Positions 29,302 to 39,062 of a stretch of 64,000 nucleotides of DNA are shown here, piece after piece. The translations under genes were made by a program, and so were the position numbers. The stretch is from Caldimonas brevitalea (GTDB lineage Bacteria; Pseudomonadota; Gammaproteobacteria; Burkholderiales; Burkholderiaceae_C): positions 248,001 to 312,000 of the forward strand of contig NZ_CP011371.1 in the NCBI RefSeq assembly GCF_001017435.1, in the 5' to 3' direction. The first letter of the stretch is position 1. Each line of letters begins with the position of its first letter. The notes under the pieces are model-generated. The model was not told the origin of the DNA. It worked only from the letters and a program-made list of their open reading frames with translations, and did not search any database.

Positions 29302-29307
29302 TATACT
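29302..29307 (+). promoter_or_regulatory. -10 element of the metX promoter
   Basis: TATACT at 29302-29307 would start transcription near 29314, exactly at the first paired base of the SAM-II aptamer. No convincing -35 hexamer is visible 17 bases upstream. Confidence 0.5.
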
Positions 29308-29314
29308 GCCTGCC

Positions 29315-29367
29315 AGCGCCGATTTGTTCCGGCTTGCGGGCGCTCTACAAATACAGCTAAAGGGGGG
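29315..29367 (+). ncRNA. SAM-II riboswitch upstream of metX
   Basis: P1 is AGCGCC (29315-29320) with GGCGCT (29339-29344), six perfect pairs. The loop begins GATTTG (29321-29326), which pairs as a pseudoknot with CAAAT (29348-29352), followed by the conserved ACAGCTAAA and a purine run. This is the order and sequence of the SAM-II class (GAUUU ... AAAU ... AGCUAAA, then purines), which controls methionine genes in response to S-adenosylmethionine. Recognised by motif and pairing, not by covariance search. Unlike the classic layout, where the purine run is the Shine-Dalgarno sequence, the metX start is 55 bases away and a terminator intervenes. Confidence 0.88.
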
Positions 29368-29373
29368 CGGTCG

Positions 29374-29411
29374 AAACCCGGTCTCACCTGCAGCGTGACG
29401 CCGGGTTTTTT
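29374..29411 (+). terminator. transcription attenuator between SAM-II aptamer and metX
   Basis: AAACCCGG (29374-29381) pairs with CCGGGTTT (29401-29408), continuing as a run of six T to 29411. It ends 11 bases before the metX ATG, so it cannot serve an upstream gene without also controlling metX. Probably the expression platform of the SAM-II riboswitch: high SAM would favour termination. The antiterminator is not identified with certainty. Confidence 0.75.
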
Positions 29412-33617: not shown

Positions 33618-35231
33618 TCAGCCTGGCGGCGCGGCTGCCACCTGGTCCCAGGACAAGCCGAAGCGCGCCAGGTATTTGCGCAGCCGGTCGGCGTCGTTGA
33701 CCACTTGCCGGCGTTGGCGCGAGGCCGCGAACAGGCGGCGGCCGGCGTCTGAAAGGCTGTGCGCCTGGCGGCACACCTGCACCACGGCGGCCAGTTGCAG
33801 CCGGTCGAACAGGTCCAGTGTGTCCAGGGTCTCGGTGTCGAGCAAGGTGTGAAGCTCGGCCTGCGGGTCCGGCGCTGCCGGTGCTTCGCTACGGTCCCAG
33901 AGCCAGCGCAACCGCGCCACTTCCGCGTCCACCTGTGCGACACCGATGCGCCCGCCCTCGGACAGTGTGGCCAGGCGGGTCACAGAAGCCGCCAGATCGC
34001 GGAAGTTGCCGCGCCAAGGCGCCTCCTGCGACTGGGCGAAACGCAGATAGCGGGCTTTGGCCTCGGCGTTGAAGCGCACCTGCCGCCCGAGTTCGCGTGC
34101 CGCCTCGCCCAGCAGGAATTCGAGGTTGGGCTCGATGTCCTCGGGACGCTCGGCCAGTCCGGGCAACTCGTAGCTCCACAGGTTGATGCGGGCGTAGAGG
34201 TCGTCGCGAAAACGCCCGGCGGCGACGGCGCTGCGCAAGTCGCGGTTGGTGCCAGCGATCAACTGGAAGTCGCTGGCGACCTCGCGGTCCGCCCCGAGTG
34301 GATAAAAGCGCTTTTCTTCGACGGCTTTCAGCAGCATCGCCTGCTCGTCGAGCCCCAACTCGCCGATTTCGTCGAGAAACAGCACGCCGCCATCGGCGCT
34401 GCGCAGCAGGCCGGCGCGGTCGCCCAATGCGCCGGTGAAGGCGCCGCGCTTGTGCCCGAACAGCGTGGAGGCCGCCGCATCCCCCTGCAACGTGGCGCAG
34501 TTCACCTCGACGAAGGGCCCCTGCACTTGATGGCGTGCCTTCTTCAGCTCGTACATCCGACGCGCCAGCAGCGACTTGCCGGCACCGGTGGGGCCGGTGA
34601 ACAAAATCGGCGCGCGCGAGCGCACGGCCACCCGTTCGACTTCGGCGATCAGCGCATTGAAGCGGGGGTTGCGGGTCGGGATGCCCGACTTGAGGAAACT
34701 CAGCGCGTCTTGCTGCTCGCGTGCGAAGCGTTGCGCAATCGCGTCGTAGCGCGACAGATCGAGGTCGATCAGCGTGTAGCTGCCCGGGTCGCCCTCGACC
34801 TGCCGCTTCGGCGGCGCGGTCTGCAGCAGCACGCCGGGGATGAAACGCGCCTCGACCATCAGGAACAAGCAGATCTGCGCGACGTGTGTGCCGGTCGTGA
34901 TGTGGGCCCAGTAGTCCTCGCGCTCGGGGTCGAAGGGATAGGCCCGCGACCAGTCGTAGAGCGCGCTGTACACCTCGCCGAAGTCCCATGGGTCGGCCAG
35001 GTCCAGCGCATGTGCGCGCACCTGCGTTTCGGGCGAGACCACCAGCAGGTCGGCCATCAGGCGCTGCACCAGTTCCTCGTGGCGCGGTGTGTAGAGCAGT
35101 TCGAGCCGGTCGATCACCAGGTCTTCGTGCTGCACGAGCGACACCGTCGGGCGCCATTTCTCCCACCGCCCCGAGCCCATGCCGCCGTCGAGCTGCGTGC
35201 CCAGGAAACCCACCACGACCTTTTTTCGCAC
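33618..35231 (-). CDS. rtcR: RtcR, sigma-54-dependent activator of RNA repair genes
   Basis: 537 residues. The N-terminal domain (1-180; [59 protein letters not shown]) is the CARF-like sensor of RtcR, which in enterobacteria responds to RNA ends with cyclic phosphate. The AAA+ domain has Walker A GPTGAGKS (about residue 213), the sigma-54 contact loop GAFTGA (about 263) and [22 protein letters not shown]-terminal helix-turn-helix follows ([20 protein letters not shown]). Start is GTG at 35231. Divergent from rtcBA, as in most bacteria. Confidence 0.96.
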
Positions 35232-35375: not shown

Positions 35376-35391
35376 TGGCACACCTCGTGCA
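35376..35391 (+). promoter_or_regulatory. sigma-54 promoter of rtcBA
   Basis: TGGCACACCTCGTGCA has GG and GC exactly ten bases apart and fits the consensus TGGCACG-N4-TTGCW at most positions. Transcription would start near 35402, leaving a leader of about 119 bases before rtcB. RtcR, encoded divergently, is the expected activator. Confidence 0.85.
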
Positions 35392-35520: not shown

Positions 35521-36741
35521 ATGAAAGAACAGAACTACAACGTCGAAGAAGTGCCGGGCGGTGTGCCGGTGAAGATGTGGACCCAGGGGGTGCCCGTCGA
35601 GGACGAAGCCAAGCGTCAGCTCGCCAATGCGGCGCGTTTGCCGGTGGTGTTCAAGCACATCGCGGCCATGCCCGACGTCCACCTCGGCATCGGCGCGACG
35701 GTCGGCTCGGTGATCCCGACCATCAAGGCGATCATCCCGGCCGCCGTCGGCGTCGACATCGGCTGCGGCATGATCGCCGCGAAGACCACCTTGTCGGCGG
35801 CCGACCTGCCCGACAACCTCGAGCCGTTGCGCTCGGCGATCGAGCGGGCGGTGCCGCACGGACGTGCCCCGGGGTCGCGCGACCCGGGCGCCTGGCACAA
35901 GGTGCCGGGCGCGGTCGACACCGCGTGGGCCCAGCTGGAGCCCGAGTTCACCGAGCTGTGCCGCGACTACCCCAAGCTGGAGAAGACCAACCACCGGAAC
36001 CACCTCGGTACGCTGGGCACCGGCAACCACTTCATCGAGGTCTGCTTGGACGAGCAAGGTTTCGTCTGGTTCATGCTGCACTCCGGCTCGCGGGGCGTGG
36101 GCAATGCGATCGGCACCATGTTCATCGAGCTGGCCAAGCAGGACGCGATGCGCCAGCAGGCCAACCTGCCCGACCGCGACCTGGCCTATTTCGAAGAAGG
36201 CTCGCGCTATTTCGGCGACTACGTGCGCGCCGTCAGCTGGGCGCAGAAGTTCGCGCAGCTGAACCGCGAGGTGATGATGCGCCGGGTCATCGAGGCGGCC
36301 AAAACCGTGATCCGCAAGAACTTCCAAAGCCATGTCGAAGCGGTGAACTGCCACCACAACTACGTGCAGCAGGAGCGCCACTTCGGCGAAGACGTCTATG
36401 TCACCCGCAAGGGTGCGGTGAGCGCCAAGAAGGGCGAGCTGGGCATCATCCCGGGCAGCATGGGCGCACGCAGCTACATCGTGCGCGGCAAGGGCAACCC
36501 GGAGAGCTTCGAAAGCTGTTCGCACGGGGCCGGCCGCACGATGAGCCGGGCCGAGGCCAAGCGCCGCTTCACGCTGGCCGACCATCGCGCGGCGACCGAG
36601 GGTGTGGAGTGCCGCAAGGACCGCGATGTGATCGACGAGATCCCGATGGCCTACAAGGACATCGACGCGGTGATGGAGGCGCAGCGCGACCTGGTCGACG
36701 TGGTGCACACCCTGAAGCAGGTGGTCTGCGTGAAAGGCTGA
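35521..36741 (+). CDS. rtcB: RNA-splicing ligase RtcB
   Basis: 406 residues, the usual length. Joins RNA 2',3'-cyclic-phosphate or 3'-phosphate ends to 5'-OH ends with GTP and Mn2+. Metal and catalytic residues are visible: MPDVHLG, GVDIGCGM (metal Cys), GTGNHFIEV, MLHSGSRGVG, NCHHNYVQQE, and SCSHGAGRTMSR, whose His335 is the residue guanylylated in the homologues. CCAGGAGCAAG lies nine bases before the ATG. Followed by rtcA after 64 bases containing a hairpin (36761-36781). Confidence 0.97.
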   Translation: MKEQNYNVEEVPGGVPVKMWTQGVPVEDEAKRQLANAARLPVVFKHIAAMPDVHLGIGATVGSVIPTIKAIIPAAVGVDIGCGMIAAKTTLSAADLPDNLEPLRSAIERAVPHGRAPGSRDPGAWHKVPGAVDTAWAQLEPEFTELCRDYPKLEKTNHRNHLGTLGTGNHFIEVCLDEQGFVWFMLHSGSRGVGNAIGTMFIELAKQDAMRQQANLPDRDLAYFEEGSRYFGDYVRAVSWAQKFAQLNREVMMRRVIEAAKTVIRKNFQSHVEAVNCHHNYVQQERHFGEDVYVTRKGAVSAKKGELGIIPGSMGARSYIVRGKGNPESFESCSHGAGRTMSRAEAKRRFTLADHRAATEGVECRKDRDVIDEIPMAYKDIDAVMEAQRDLVDVVHTLKQVVCVKG

Positions 36742-36805: not shown

Positions 36806-37882
36806 ATGCAAGCGCATCACACGATGAACACTCGGGCCCCGTTGGCCCTGGACGGCTCGCAGGGCGAGGGCGGCGGGCAAATCCTGCGGACCTCGCTCGC
36901 GCTGTCGATGCTGACGGGCCGTCCCTTCGAAATCCACAGCATCCGCGCCAAGCGCAGCAAGCCGGGGCTGATGCGGCAGCACCTCGTTTGTGTGCAGGCC
37001 GCGGCGCAGATCAGCGGCGCGCAGGTCGAAGGCGCCGAGCTGGGGTCGCAAGACCTCAAGTTCACGCCGGGTCGCGTGCGCGCCGGCGACTACCGCTTTG
37101 CGATCTCCAGTGCCGGCAGTTGCACGCTGGTGCTGCAAACGGTGTTGCCGCCCTTGCTGTTCGCGCAGCAACCCAGCCGCATCGAGCTGTGCGGCGGCAC
37201 GCACAACCCGATGGCGCCGCCCTACCATTTCCTCGAGCGGTCGTACCTGCCCTTGCTGCGCCGCCTGGGCGCGGACGTGACACTGGAGTTGCGACGTCAC
37301 GGCTTTTATCCGGCTGGCGGCGGTGAGGTGTACGCGACGGTCCACCCGGTGGTGGGTGCGTTGCGGCCCTACCGGCTGGCCGAGCGCGGCGAGTTGCGTG
37401 GGGCCTACGCCGAAAGCCTGGTGGCCGGAGTGCCGCGGGCCGTGGCGCAACGCCAGCTGGAAGTATTGGGCCGCTCGCTCGGATGGAGCGGACCGCAGTT
37501 GCGCACCCCCGGCATGCGGCAGAACGAAGGGCCGGGCAATGTGCTGATGGCCACGCTCGAGTACGAACACGTGACCGAAGTGTTCACGCAGTTCGGCGAA
37601 CGGGGGGTGCCGGCCGAGCAGGTGGCTCAACGGTTGGTGACCGAGGTGCGGGCCTTCCAGGCCAGCGCAGCGGCGGTCGGTCCCCACCTCGCCGACCAGC
37701 TGGCGCTGTTGATTGCGCTGGCCGGCGGCGGGGCCTTCACGACCAGCGAAATCACCCAGCACACCCGTACAAATTTACTCGTGGTGCAGCAGTTCTTGCC
37801 GGTGCGGTTCGAGACGAAAGCGCTGGAAGGCGGGTGGTGGGTCGAGGTGAACGGTCGTGCGGCGACGGTCGAATCCGAATGA
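36806..37882 (+). CDS. rtcA: RNA 3'-terminal phosphate cyclase
   Basis: 358 residues. Converts RNA 3'-phosphates to 2',3'-cyclic phosphates using ATP, through an adenylylated histidine. Seen: LDGSQGEGGGQILRTSLALS, IRAKRSKPGLMRQHLVCVQA, HNPMAPPYHFLERSYLPLL, HGFYPAGGGEV and the nucleophile in SEITQHTRTNLLVV (His319). Second gene of the rtcBA operon. A second in-frame ATG at 36824 is also possible and gives a protein closer to the 338-residue E. coli enzyme. Confidence 0.96.
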   Translation: MQAHHTMNTRAPLALDGSQGEGGGQILRTSLALSMLTGRPFEIHSIRAKRSKPGLMRQHLVCVQAAAQISGAQVEGAELGSQDLKFTPGRVRAGDYRFAISSAGSCTLVLQTVLPPLLFAQQPSRIELCGGTHNPMAPPYHFLERSYLPLLRRLGADVTLELRRHGFYPAGGGEVYATVHPVVGALRPYRLAERGELRGAYAESLVAGVPRAVAQRQLEVLGRSLGWSGPQLRTPGMRQNEGPGNVLMATLEYEHVTEVFTQFGERGVPAEQVAQRLVTEVRAFQASAAAVGPHLADQLALLIALAGGGAFTTSEITQHTRTNLLVVQQFLPVRFETKALEGGWWVEVNGRAATVESE

Positions 37883-38017: not shown

Positions 38018-38053
38018 AAAAAAATGCCCCCGGACTGCAGAACAGCCGGGGGC
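38018..38053 (-). terminator. intrinsic terminator on the reverse strand, downstream of the candidate small RNA
   Basis: GCCCCCGG (38026-38033) pairs perfectly with CCGGGGGC (38046-38053), with CTG/CAG inside. On the reverse strand it is followed by A then seven T. On the forward strand there is no T tract, so it does not serve rtcA. No reverse-strand protein gene ends here, which implies a reverse-strand RNA. Confidence 0.8.
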
Positions 38054-38061
38054 CGATAGAC

Positions 38062-38157
38062 AAAAAGCGCCCCGAACCCGGACCGCCCAAGCTAGGTGAG
38101 GGAGGGTCGGAGAGGGAGGAGCGAGCCGGTGTACGTCCGGGGCGCTATAAAACACTG
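38062..38157 (-). ncRNA. candidate sigma-54-dependent small RNA next to the rtc operon
   Basis: Predicted transcript of about 96 nt starting near 38157, twelve bases after the -12 GC of a near-consensus sigma-54 promoter. Its ends pair perfectly: AGCGCCCCG (38146-38138) with CGGGGCGCT (38074-38066), followed by a U tract (38066-38062). The enclosed loop is C/U rich and contains CUCCUCCCUC and CCCUCCCUC; UCCUCC is complementary to Shine-Dalgarno GGAGGA. Read-through would end at the second terminator near 38018 (about 140 nt). No protein frame fits. I do not recognise the family. Existence is inferred from promoter plus terminators. Confidence 0.6.
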
Positions 38158-38167
38158 AAAAGGTAGA

Positions 38168-38183
38168 GGCAAGGCCCGTGCCA
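38168..38183 (-). promoter_or_regulatory. near-consensus sigma-54 promoter on the reverse strand
   Basis: Reverse strand reads TGGCACGGGCCTTGCC, against TGGCACG-N4-TTGCW: every defined position except the last agrees, with GG-N10-GC spacing. It points away from hyi towards the candidate small RNA. RtcR is the only sigma-54 activator in the window. Confidence 0.75.
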
Positions 38184-38252: not shown

Positions 38253-39062
38253 ATGCCACGCTTTGCCGCCAACCTTTCGTTCTTGTACGCCGAACACGCC
38301 TTTCTGGACCGCTTCGCCGCAGCCGCGCGCGACGGCTTCCGCGGTGTCGAATTTCTCTTTCCCTACGACTGGCCGACCCTCGATGTGACAAGACGTGTGG
38401 AAAGCGAGGGACTCAGTGTGGTGTTGTTCAACGCGCCTTGCGGCGACTGGGCCGGTGGCGAGCGCGGCCTCGCCTGTCTGCCCGGGCGCGAGGCGGAGTT
38501 CCGGGACGGCGTCGAGCGCGCACTCGCTTACGCCACCGCCCTGCGCTGCCCGCGCGTCCACGTGATGGCCGGGCTGGCGCCGGCCGGCGTCGAACGCCAG
38601 CGGCTGCAGGCCGTGTACGTCGAGAACCTGCAATGGGCGGCGGCCCGGGCCGCGGCGGCCGGCCTCGCACTGACGGTCGAGCCGATCAACCCGCGTGACA
38701 TGCCCGGCTATTTCCTGAACCGGCAAGACGACGCGCACGAGGTGGTGGCGCTGGTCGGCGCGCCCAACCTCGGCGTGCAGATGGACCTCTACCACTGCCA
38801 GATCGTGGAGGGCGACGTGTCGACCCGGCTGCAACGCCACCTCCCCACCGGCCGCGTGACCCATCTGCAGATCGCCGGCGTGCCCGAGCGGCACGAGCCC
38901 GACAGCGGCGAGCTGCACTATCCGCACCTGTTCGAGCTGGTCGATCGCCTCGACTACGCCGGGTGGATCGGCTGCGAGTACCGCCCGCGGCGGGGGGCCG
39001 TGCCGAACGGCACCACCCAGGGTTTGGGCTGGCTGCGCCGCTTGCAAGGCCAGGGCACCTGA
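38253..39062 (+). CDS. hyi: hydroxypyruvate isomerase family protein
   Basis: 269 residues, TIM-barrel of the AP endonuclease 2 / Hyi-OtnI group. Seen: [69 protein letters not shown] (metal Glu), [14 protein letters not shown] and [10 protein letters not shown] (second metal Glu). Interconverts hydroxypyruvate and tartronate semialdehyde, or related 2-oxo-tetronates in OtnI. No glyoxylate carboligase or reductase is adjacent, so the pathway is not fixed by context. Confidence 0.9.

Follow-up and report, generated by a model that had tools for sequence, protein, structure and literature searches.

To our knowledge, only few small RNAs (sRNAs) are known to depend on sigma-54. The Vibrio Qrr sRNAs are sigma-54-dependent, occur in several copies per genome and combine an invariant pairing core with a multi-stem layout, and in Pseudomonas CrcZ/CrcY and NrsZ are sigma-54-dependent intergenic sRNAs, with CrcZ carrying A-rich Hfq/Crc motifs and sequestering Hfq. 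The RNA of family RF02278 (Betaproteobacteria toxic sRNA, Bordetella S17 or Burkholderia bdhR1) is reported to have a highly conserved, C/U-rich single-stranded stretch with CUCCUCC, followed by a terminator hairpin, and S17 to be transcribed from a sigma-A promoter and then cleaved by RNase E (PMC11722255). For ncS25, no upstream sigma-54 motif is reported (PMC10117139), and YrlA is described as a noncoding RNA near rtcBA which is encoded in the operon and contains a tRNA-like domain (PMC7790460).

We analysed computationally a locus on the reverse strand of the window, i.e. the whole stretch of 64,000 nt of DNA, where a short RNA gene is predicted convergent with rtcBA. With the Qrr sRNAs it shares a sigma-54-type promoter, the presence of several copies per genome and an invariant core amid more variable stems, but the multi-stem layout is absent, and none of 20 family loci matched any Rfam family at E<=0.5. 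As CrcZ, CrcY and NrsZ it is intergenic with a sigma-54-type promoter, but its loop is C/U-rich, in contrast to the A-rich motifs of CrcZ, and again no Rfam match was obtained. With RF02278 it has in common a C/U-rich single-stranded stretch with CUCCUCC, high conservation and the bacterial order; its promoter, however, is sigma-54-like, and its C/U stretch forms the terminator stem's own loop. YrlA is likewise a noncoding RNA near rtcBA; however, the gene studied here is convergent with its own promoter, shows no match to an Rfam Y RNA, and its proximity to rtcBA is not conserved.

At gathering thresholds, the Rfam search of the whole window returned only a SAM_alpha riboswitch elsewhere in the window (29306-29380(+), 38.5 bits, above gathering score). 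At the locus itself, RF02837 (anti-hemB; 21.2 bits, E 0.023) and RF02871 (ncS54; 16.2 bits, E 0.95) stayed below their gathering cut-offs of 49.5 and 43 bits, and RF02278, with a cut-off of 50 bits, gave no match at E<=1. RF02278 was found above its gathering score as a separate gene in 13 of 13 genomes tested, and among the family loci of these genomes only the two of genus g85 matched it, weakly, with 25.3 and 23.3 bits versus the cut-off of 50. Among open-licence papers we found neither a description of this RNA nor a sigma-54-dependent sRNA for these bacteria. In design it resembles Qrr and the Betaproteobacteria toxic sRNA, and it is a member of neither. That the feature is real we judge to be very probable. 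Our main reading, to which we assign a probability of roughly 0.6, is that it may represent a new family of sigma-54-dependent trans-acting sRNAs working through an invariant loop; its computational basis is conservation, covariation, promoter conservation and occurrence without RtcR and away from rtc.

Promoter and predicted RNA at the locus

The locus is flanked by rtcR (33618-35231(-)), rtcB (35521-36741(+)) and rtcA, ending at 37882(+), on one side and by a 2-oxo-tetronate/hydroxypyruvate isomerase-like gene (38253-39062(+)), followed by an alpha/beta hydrolase gene, on the other side. Between rtcR and rtcB lies another sigma-54-like element, TGGCACACCTCGTGCA (35376-35391(+)), probably the rtcBA promoter. 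The features of the locus are as follows.

38168..38183, minus strand: sigma-54 -24/-12 promoter element TGGCACGGGCCTTGCC; GGCAC and TTGC blocks invariant in 6/6 RNA-bearing species of the genus
38063..38157, minus strand: predicted sRNA from start to first U tract; start inferred near 38157, match to covariance model R1
38066..38146, minus strand: 12-bp outer stem (38146-38135 with 38077-38066), 5' asymmetric bulge, middle and inner stem; from folding and covariation
38085..38118, minus strand: 34-nt invariant run CTCCCTCTCCGACCCTCCCTCACCTAGCTTGGGC, mostly single-stranded C/U-rich loop; identical in 6/6 species
38062..38066, minus strand: U tract TTTTT of the first terminator, its first T also closing the outer stem; from sequence, with an overlapping terminator-like site
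38018..38054, minus strand: second hairpin, back-up terminator with seven T; from sequence and folding

The initial annotation had placed a sigma-54 element with exact GG-N10-GC spacing at 38183-38168(-) and a second hairpin with seven T ending at 38018, and both were found at these positions, the element matching 11 of the 12 specified positions of the consensus and the TTTTTTT tract lying at 38024-38018(-). The stem preceding the first U tract is present as well, with 12 pairs instead of the 9 pairs previously given. The RNA is predicted to start at about 38157, approximately 11-12 nt past the -12 element, and the outer stem begins 21 nt after the promoter element. The R1 match at the locus spans 38154-38060 with 118.9 bits, the window being one of the five source sequences of R1. 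The C/U-rich loop of the first hairpin comprises 29 nt (38117-38089(-)) with a mean unpaired probability of 0.86. On visual inspection, the terminators serve no protein gene of the reverse strand, whose frames here are largely antisense to the isomerase gene. A bidirectional terminator for rtcA was ruled out, since the plus strand carries no T tract after either hairpin.

The first hairpin has a minimum free energy of -37 kcal/mol, which is only modestly better than in shuffled sequences (z -1.88, 6 of 200 shuffles equally good), while both hairpins together reach -61.1 kcal/mol with a z of -3.71; from an alignment judged by eye, the sequence of the second hairpin is not common to the relatives. 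Compared to 60 dinucleotide shuffles of the window, sigma-54 sites are not enriched, with one site versus a mean of 0.78 at up to one mismatch and four sites versus a mean of 9.9 at up to two mismatches. The promoter match alone is chance-level and therefore convincing only via its conservation. Both this match and the z of only -1.88 would agree with there being no gene at all, but a terminator-like hairpin that happens to follow a chance promoter match. Against this, the promoter, the loop and the co-varying stem have been retained jointly across differing genomic surroundings, and we regard the absence of a gene as very improbable.

Conservation in the genus and the wider family

A DNA search of 60 relatives gave matches in the window's own genome and five others, all of the same genus. 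A covariance model restricted to the RNA detected it in 6 of the 9 genomes of the genus, namely the window's own (G000) and G001, G002, G003, G004 and G008, and not in the other three. In all six carriers, the GGCAC and TTGC blocks are located 39-41 nt ahead of the model start, and apart from these blocks the upstream flank shows hardly any conservation in the five other RNA-bearing species. The 34-nt run CTCCCTCTCCGACCCTCCCTCACCTAGCTTGGGC is unchanged across the six species; the isomerase gene beside the sRNA is 72-76% identical in the three species compared, with a longest invariant run of 20. Conservation of promoter and stem, whose lack in close relatives with the rtc locus would have spoken against the initial annotation, extends to G002, G003 and G004, relatives that share rtcR, and the earlier proposal of an unannotated sRNA with a sigma-54-type promoter gains support from this conservation and from the covariation described below. 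Order-wide, the RNA was recovered in 1 of 399 genomes, the window's own, under strict filters by which weak matches are lost, and a contig scan with a pattern of the first copy only yielded 11 stretches, two of them family members and nine in unrelated taxa, which we take as chance, without returning the other carriers.

The invariant run also bears on the reading as a short leader peptide, for which an 18-codon frame initiated by ATG, ending in LLPLRPSLT and a stop codon and overlapping the hairpin, could be considered. This frame has its ATG in G001, G002, G003 and G004; however, the ATG is missing in G000 (ATA) and G008, leaving 4 of 6 genomes, no Shine-Dalgarno sequence is visible by eye, synonymous changes are entirely lacking in the invariant part, and the second copy, again judged by eye, does not keep the frame. 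We consider a leader peptide as hardly credible.

This second, diverged copy is located at G000:C1:933364-933460, approximately 650 kb from the window sRNA in the same genome, and has its own sigma-54 element. Second copies were detected in G000, G002, G003 and G004 by R1 (28-31 bits) and in G008 via the broader model R2. First and second copy share CUYUCCGACYCUC in four species, and the second copy of G008 shares only CUUUCCGAC. Between the second-copy terminator and the next gene, we additionally observed a conserved block with the consensus GAATTGCTGCAAATTTTGCAATCGCTGGTAGTT (L013, about 1621-1655) in four genomes and partly in a fifth, possibly a regulator site.

Family members were further found in three other genera, g85 (2 loci), g77 (4 loci) and g121 (3, later 5 loci). 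The family thus comprises 22 loci, all of which carry a sigma-54-like element with up to 2 mismatches. In the background, such an element occurs at 18 of 3895 positions, counted within 130 bases; for L051 and L123, the scan covered the 170 bases preceding the loop. In g121, the element resides approximately 50-60 nt further upstream than in other clades. It should be noted that the covariance models were built without the promoter; of the 22 elements, the window's own had been the starting point of the analysis. Among hits that were new when found, the element was present in 6 of 7 for R1, with L020 as the exception, in 8 of 8 for R2 at 32.8 bits or more, and in 2 of 2 for R3 at 57 bits or more. 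The R3 search at E<=0.001 gave 21 places, with a promoter in all 16 at 57 bits or more, of which 14 are the loci R3 was built from, and in none of the 5 at 31.2 bits or less (L020, L125-L128). Of the 23 places of the first R2 search, 19 were examined (all except L042-L045), 11 with a promoter and 8 without (L020, L033-L038, L041); the second R2 search gave 21 places, of which the 18 examined (all except L058-L060) divide into 14 with a promoter and 4 without (L054-L057). L020, located in the window's own genome, scored 26.2 bits with R1, 31.9 with R2 and 31.2 with R3. Lacking a promoter and having neighbours that, judged by eye, resemble a prophage, it was treated as chance despite its R2 match at E 4.9e-6, being excluded from the family alignment and from the count of 22.

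Over 20 loci, the stems co-vary, with 95.5% of the cells paired and 12 of 17 pairs changed on both sides. The covariation score of 0.490, compared to 0.248 in shuffles, was reached by none of 500 shuffles, and sliding the partners by 1-3 columns reduced it to 0.143 or less. These values are supportive and do not translate into a probability, since the alignment had been adjusted to the structure and the loci share ancestry; two g121 loci were found later. Folded as single sequences, 16 of the 20 loci adopt a stem whose loop, 18-31 nt in length, is open, and for the first-copy, g77, g85 and g121 loci a largely unpaired loop is predicted, with a mean unpaired probability of 0.86-0.99. The loop stays fully open in just one of the five second-copy loci, L019; in L018 and L040 it is partly paired, and L013 and L017 fold unlike the consensus.

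Relation to RtcR and the rtc operon

Given its promoter type and position, the sRNA had been proposed to be controlled by RtcR as part of the response to RNA damage. Its location beside rtcA in G000, G002 and G004, together with the sigma-54-like element preceding rtcB (35376-35391(+)), would agree with an RtcR-controlled RNA of the RNA-repair operon. However, RtcR was found above the curated cut-off in only 4 of 11 genomes searched (G000, G002, G003, G004), and 4 of the 8 sRNA-bearing genomes, G001 and G008 of the same genus and G280 and G345 of g85, retain RNA and promoter without RtcR above cut-off. In G003, rtcR and the sRNA do not share a contig: the former lies on C51, the latter on C23 with more than 190 kb of contig on each side. 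The sRNA adjoins rtcA in only three of the six genus carriers; in G001 and G008 it is found next to the alpha/beta hydrolase gene located behind the isomerase gene in the window, and its position beside rtcA therefore seems to be a local coincidence. Between rtcR and rtcB, we picked by eye a block ATCAACG-N2-TTGC, which stands out in G000, G002 and G004 and less so in G003; around the window's sRNA promoter, no sequence matches it with 2 mismatches or fewer. Finally, the second copy lies at a distance of about 650 kb in the same genome. RtcR control of the sRNA is unlikely in our view and membership in the RNA-repair operon highly improbable; the RtcR-free carriers do not prove zero influence of RtcR in G000. 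As some relatives carry it without RtcR, the sRNA probably does not belong to the response to RNA damage, which corrects a tempting link of this sRNA to RNA repair.

Dependence on sigma-54 in vivo is likely. Upstream of the promoters, no activator site common to the clades was found, and exact NtrC-, NifA- and NorR-like patterns were absent from the 250 bases upstream of 19 loci. In all four g77 loci (L047, L050, L052, L053), a TTTGC-N8/9-GCAAA dyad is located 136-147 bases upstream of the promoter, which could be an activator site or the end of the upstream gene.

Loop function and proposed mechanism

A single-stranded segment that is invariant over such a length suggests that it either pairs with several RNAs or binds a protein. 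Since it is the loop whose sequence is kept by selection, action through pairing of this loop with mRNAs is most likely, and pairing with particular mRNAs is our best inference. General blocking of Shine-Dalgarno sequences, as initially suggested, found no support: at 262 called starts the loop paired with a mean of -10.23 kcal/mol versus -10.54 kcal/mol inside genes, with 24 of 60 shuffled loops performing as well, and for the second-copy loop the values were -9.97 and -10.06 kcal/mol with 23 of 60 shuffled loops. This test is rough, covering the window and 380 kb sampled from its own genome, where only 38% of the called starts carry GGAG, GAGG or AGGA. Sites complementary to the loop (18 nt, up to 3 mismatches) numbered 21 versus 23 for the reversed control, with 5 of the 21 being the gene itself; a second complementarity pattern at the same length and tolerance, which fits the second copy only with 3 mismatches, gave 96 versus 125. 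Antisense action on one mRNA was rejected, since complementary 18-mers do not outnumber the reversed control. A few complementary sites look common to two genomes.

One complementary site, GAGGGAGGGAGGAGGAGG, occurs in all six genomes and was discarded, as it corresponds to the template strand of a different hairpin with a C/U loop. This other hairpin RNA is found at L139 1501-1518 (G000:C1:345049-345066), L143, L144, L153, G003:C23:363033 and G004:C2:3186435, with an 18-mer in its loop identical in all six sRNA-bearing genomes. It displays no sigma-54 element within 2 mismatches (four loci) and no Rfam match nearby at E<=0.5, and resembles the hits L125-L128 from genera g25 and g164. A further hairpin, at L095 about 1486-1533 (G004:C2:3327041), shares CCCTCCCTCACCTA in its C/U loop with the sRNA loop and has no sigma-54 element within 3 mismatches in the preceding 140 bases.

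The missing preference for start regions and the fact that complementarity searches found no specific mRNA target could also be explained by a protein-binding decoy, in which the C/U loop and the asymmetric bulge would sequester an RNA-binding protein in the way CrcZ does with Hfq, and the C/U character of the loop is common to clades differing in exact loop sequence. Such decoys, however, usually tolerate substitutions and repeat a short motif, while 34 nt are invariant in six species here, and we have no candidate for the protein. We regard a decoy as rather unlikely.

For the reading as a trans-acting sRNA, we propose a model in which sigma-54 RNA polymerase, opened by an enhancer-binding protein which is probably not RtcR, would start the sRNA at about 38157. 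Transcription would be terminated by the sRNA's own hairpin, leading to a product of approximately 95 nt (38157-38063(-)). This product is predicted to fold into one long bulged hairpin presenting the 29-nt C/U-rich loop single-stranded, with a U tail that may be suited to Hfq, and the loop would most likely pair with G-rich stretches of several mRNAs. More tentatively, the RNAs may form a Qrr-like family of the Burkholderiales, in which one activator would drive two hairpin RNAs per genome whose shared core pairs with a common set of mRNAs, an extension we consider possible and do not favour.

The promoter-supported alignment, the two copies in several genomes and the invariant loop provide a handle for probe, reporter and bait. 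The activator, once found, would connect post-transcriptional control with a nutrient or stress signal. If true, the Qrr-like reading would add to the sigma-54 response of these bacteria a post-transcriptional arm not seen before.
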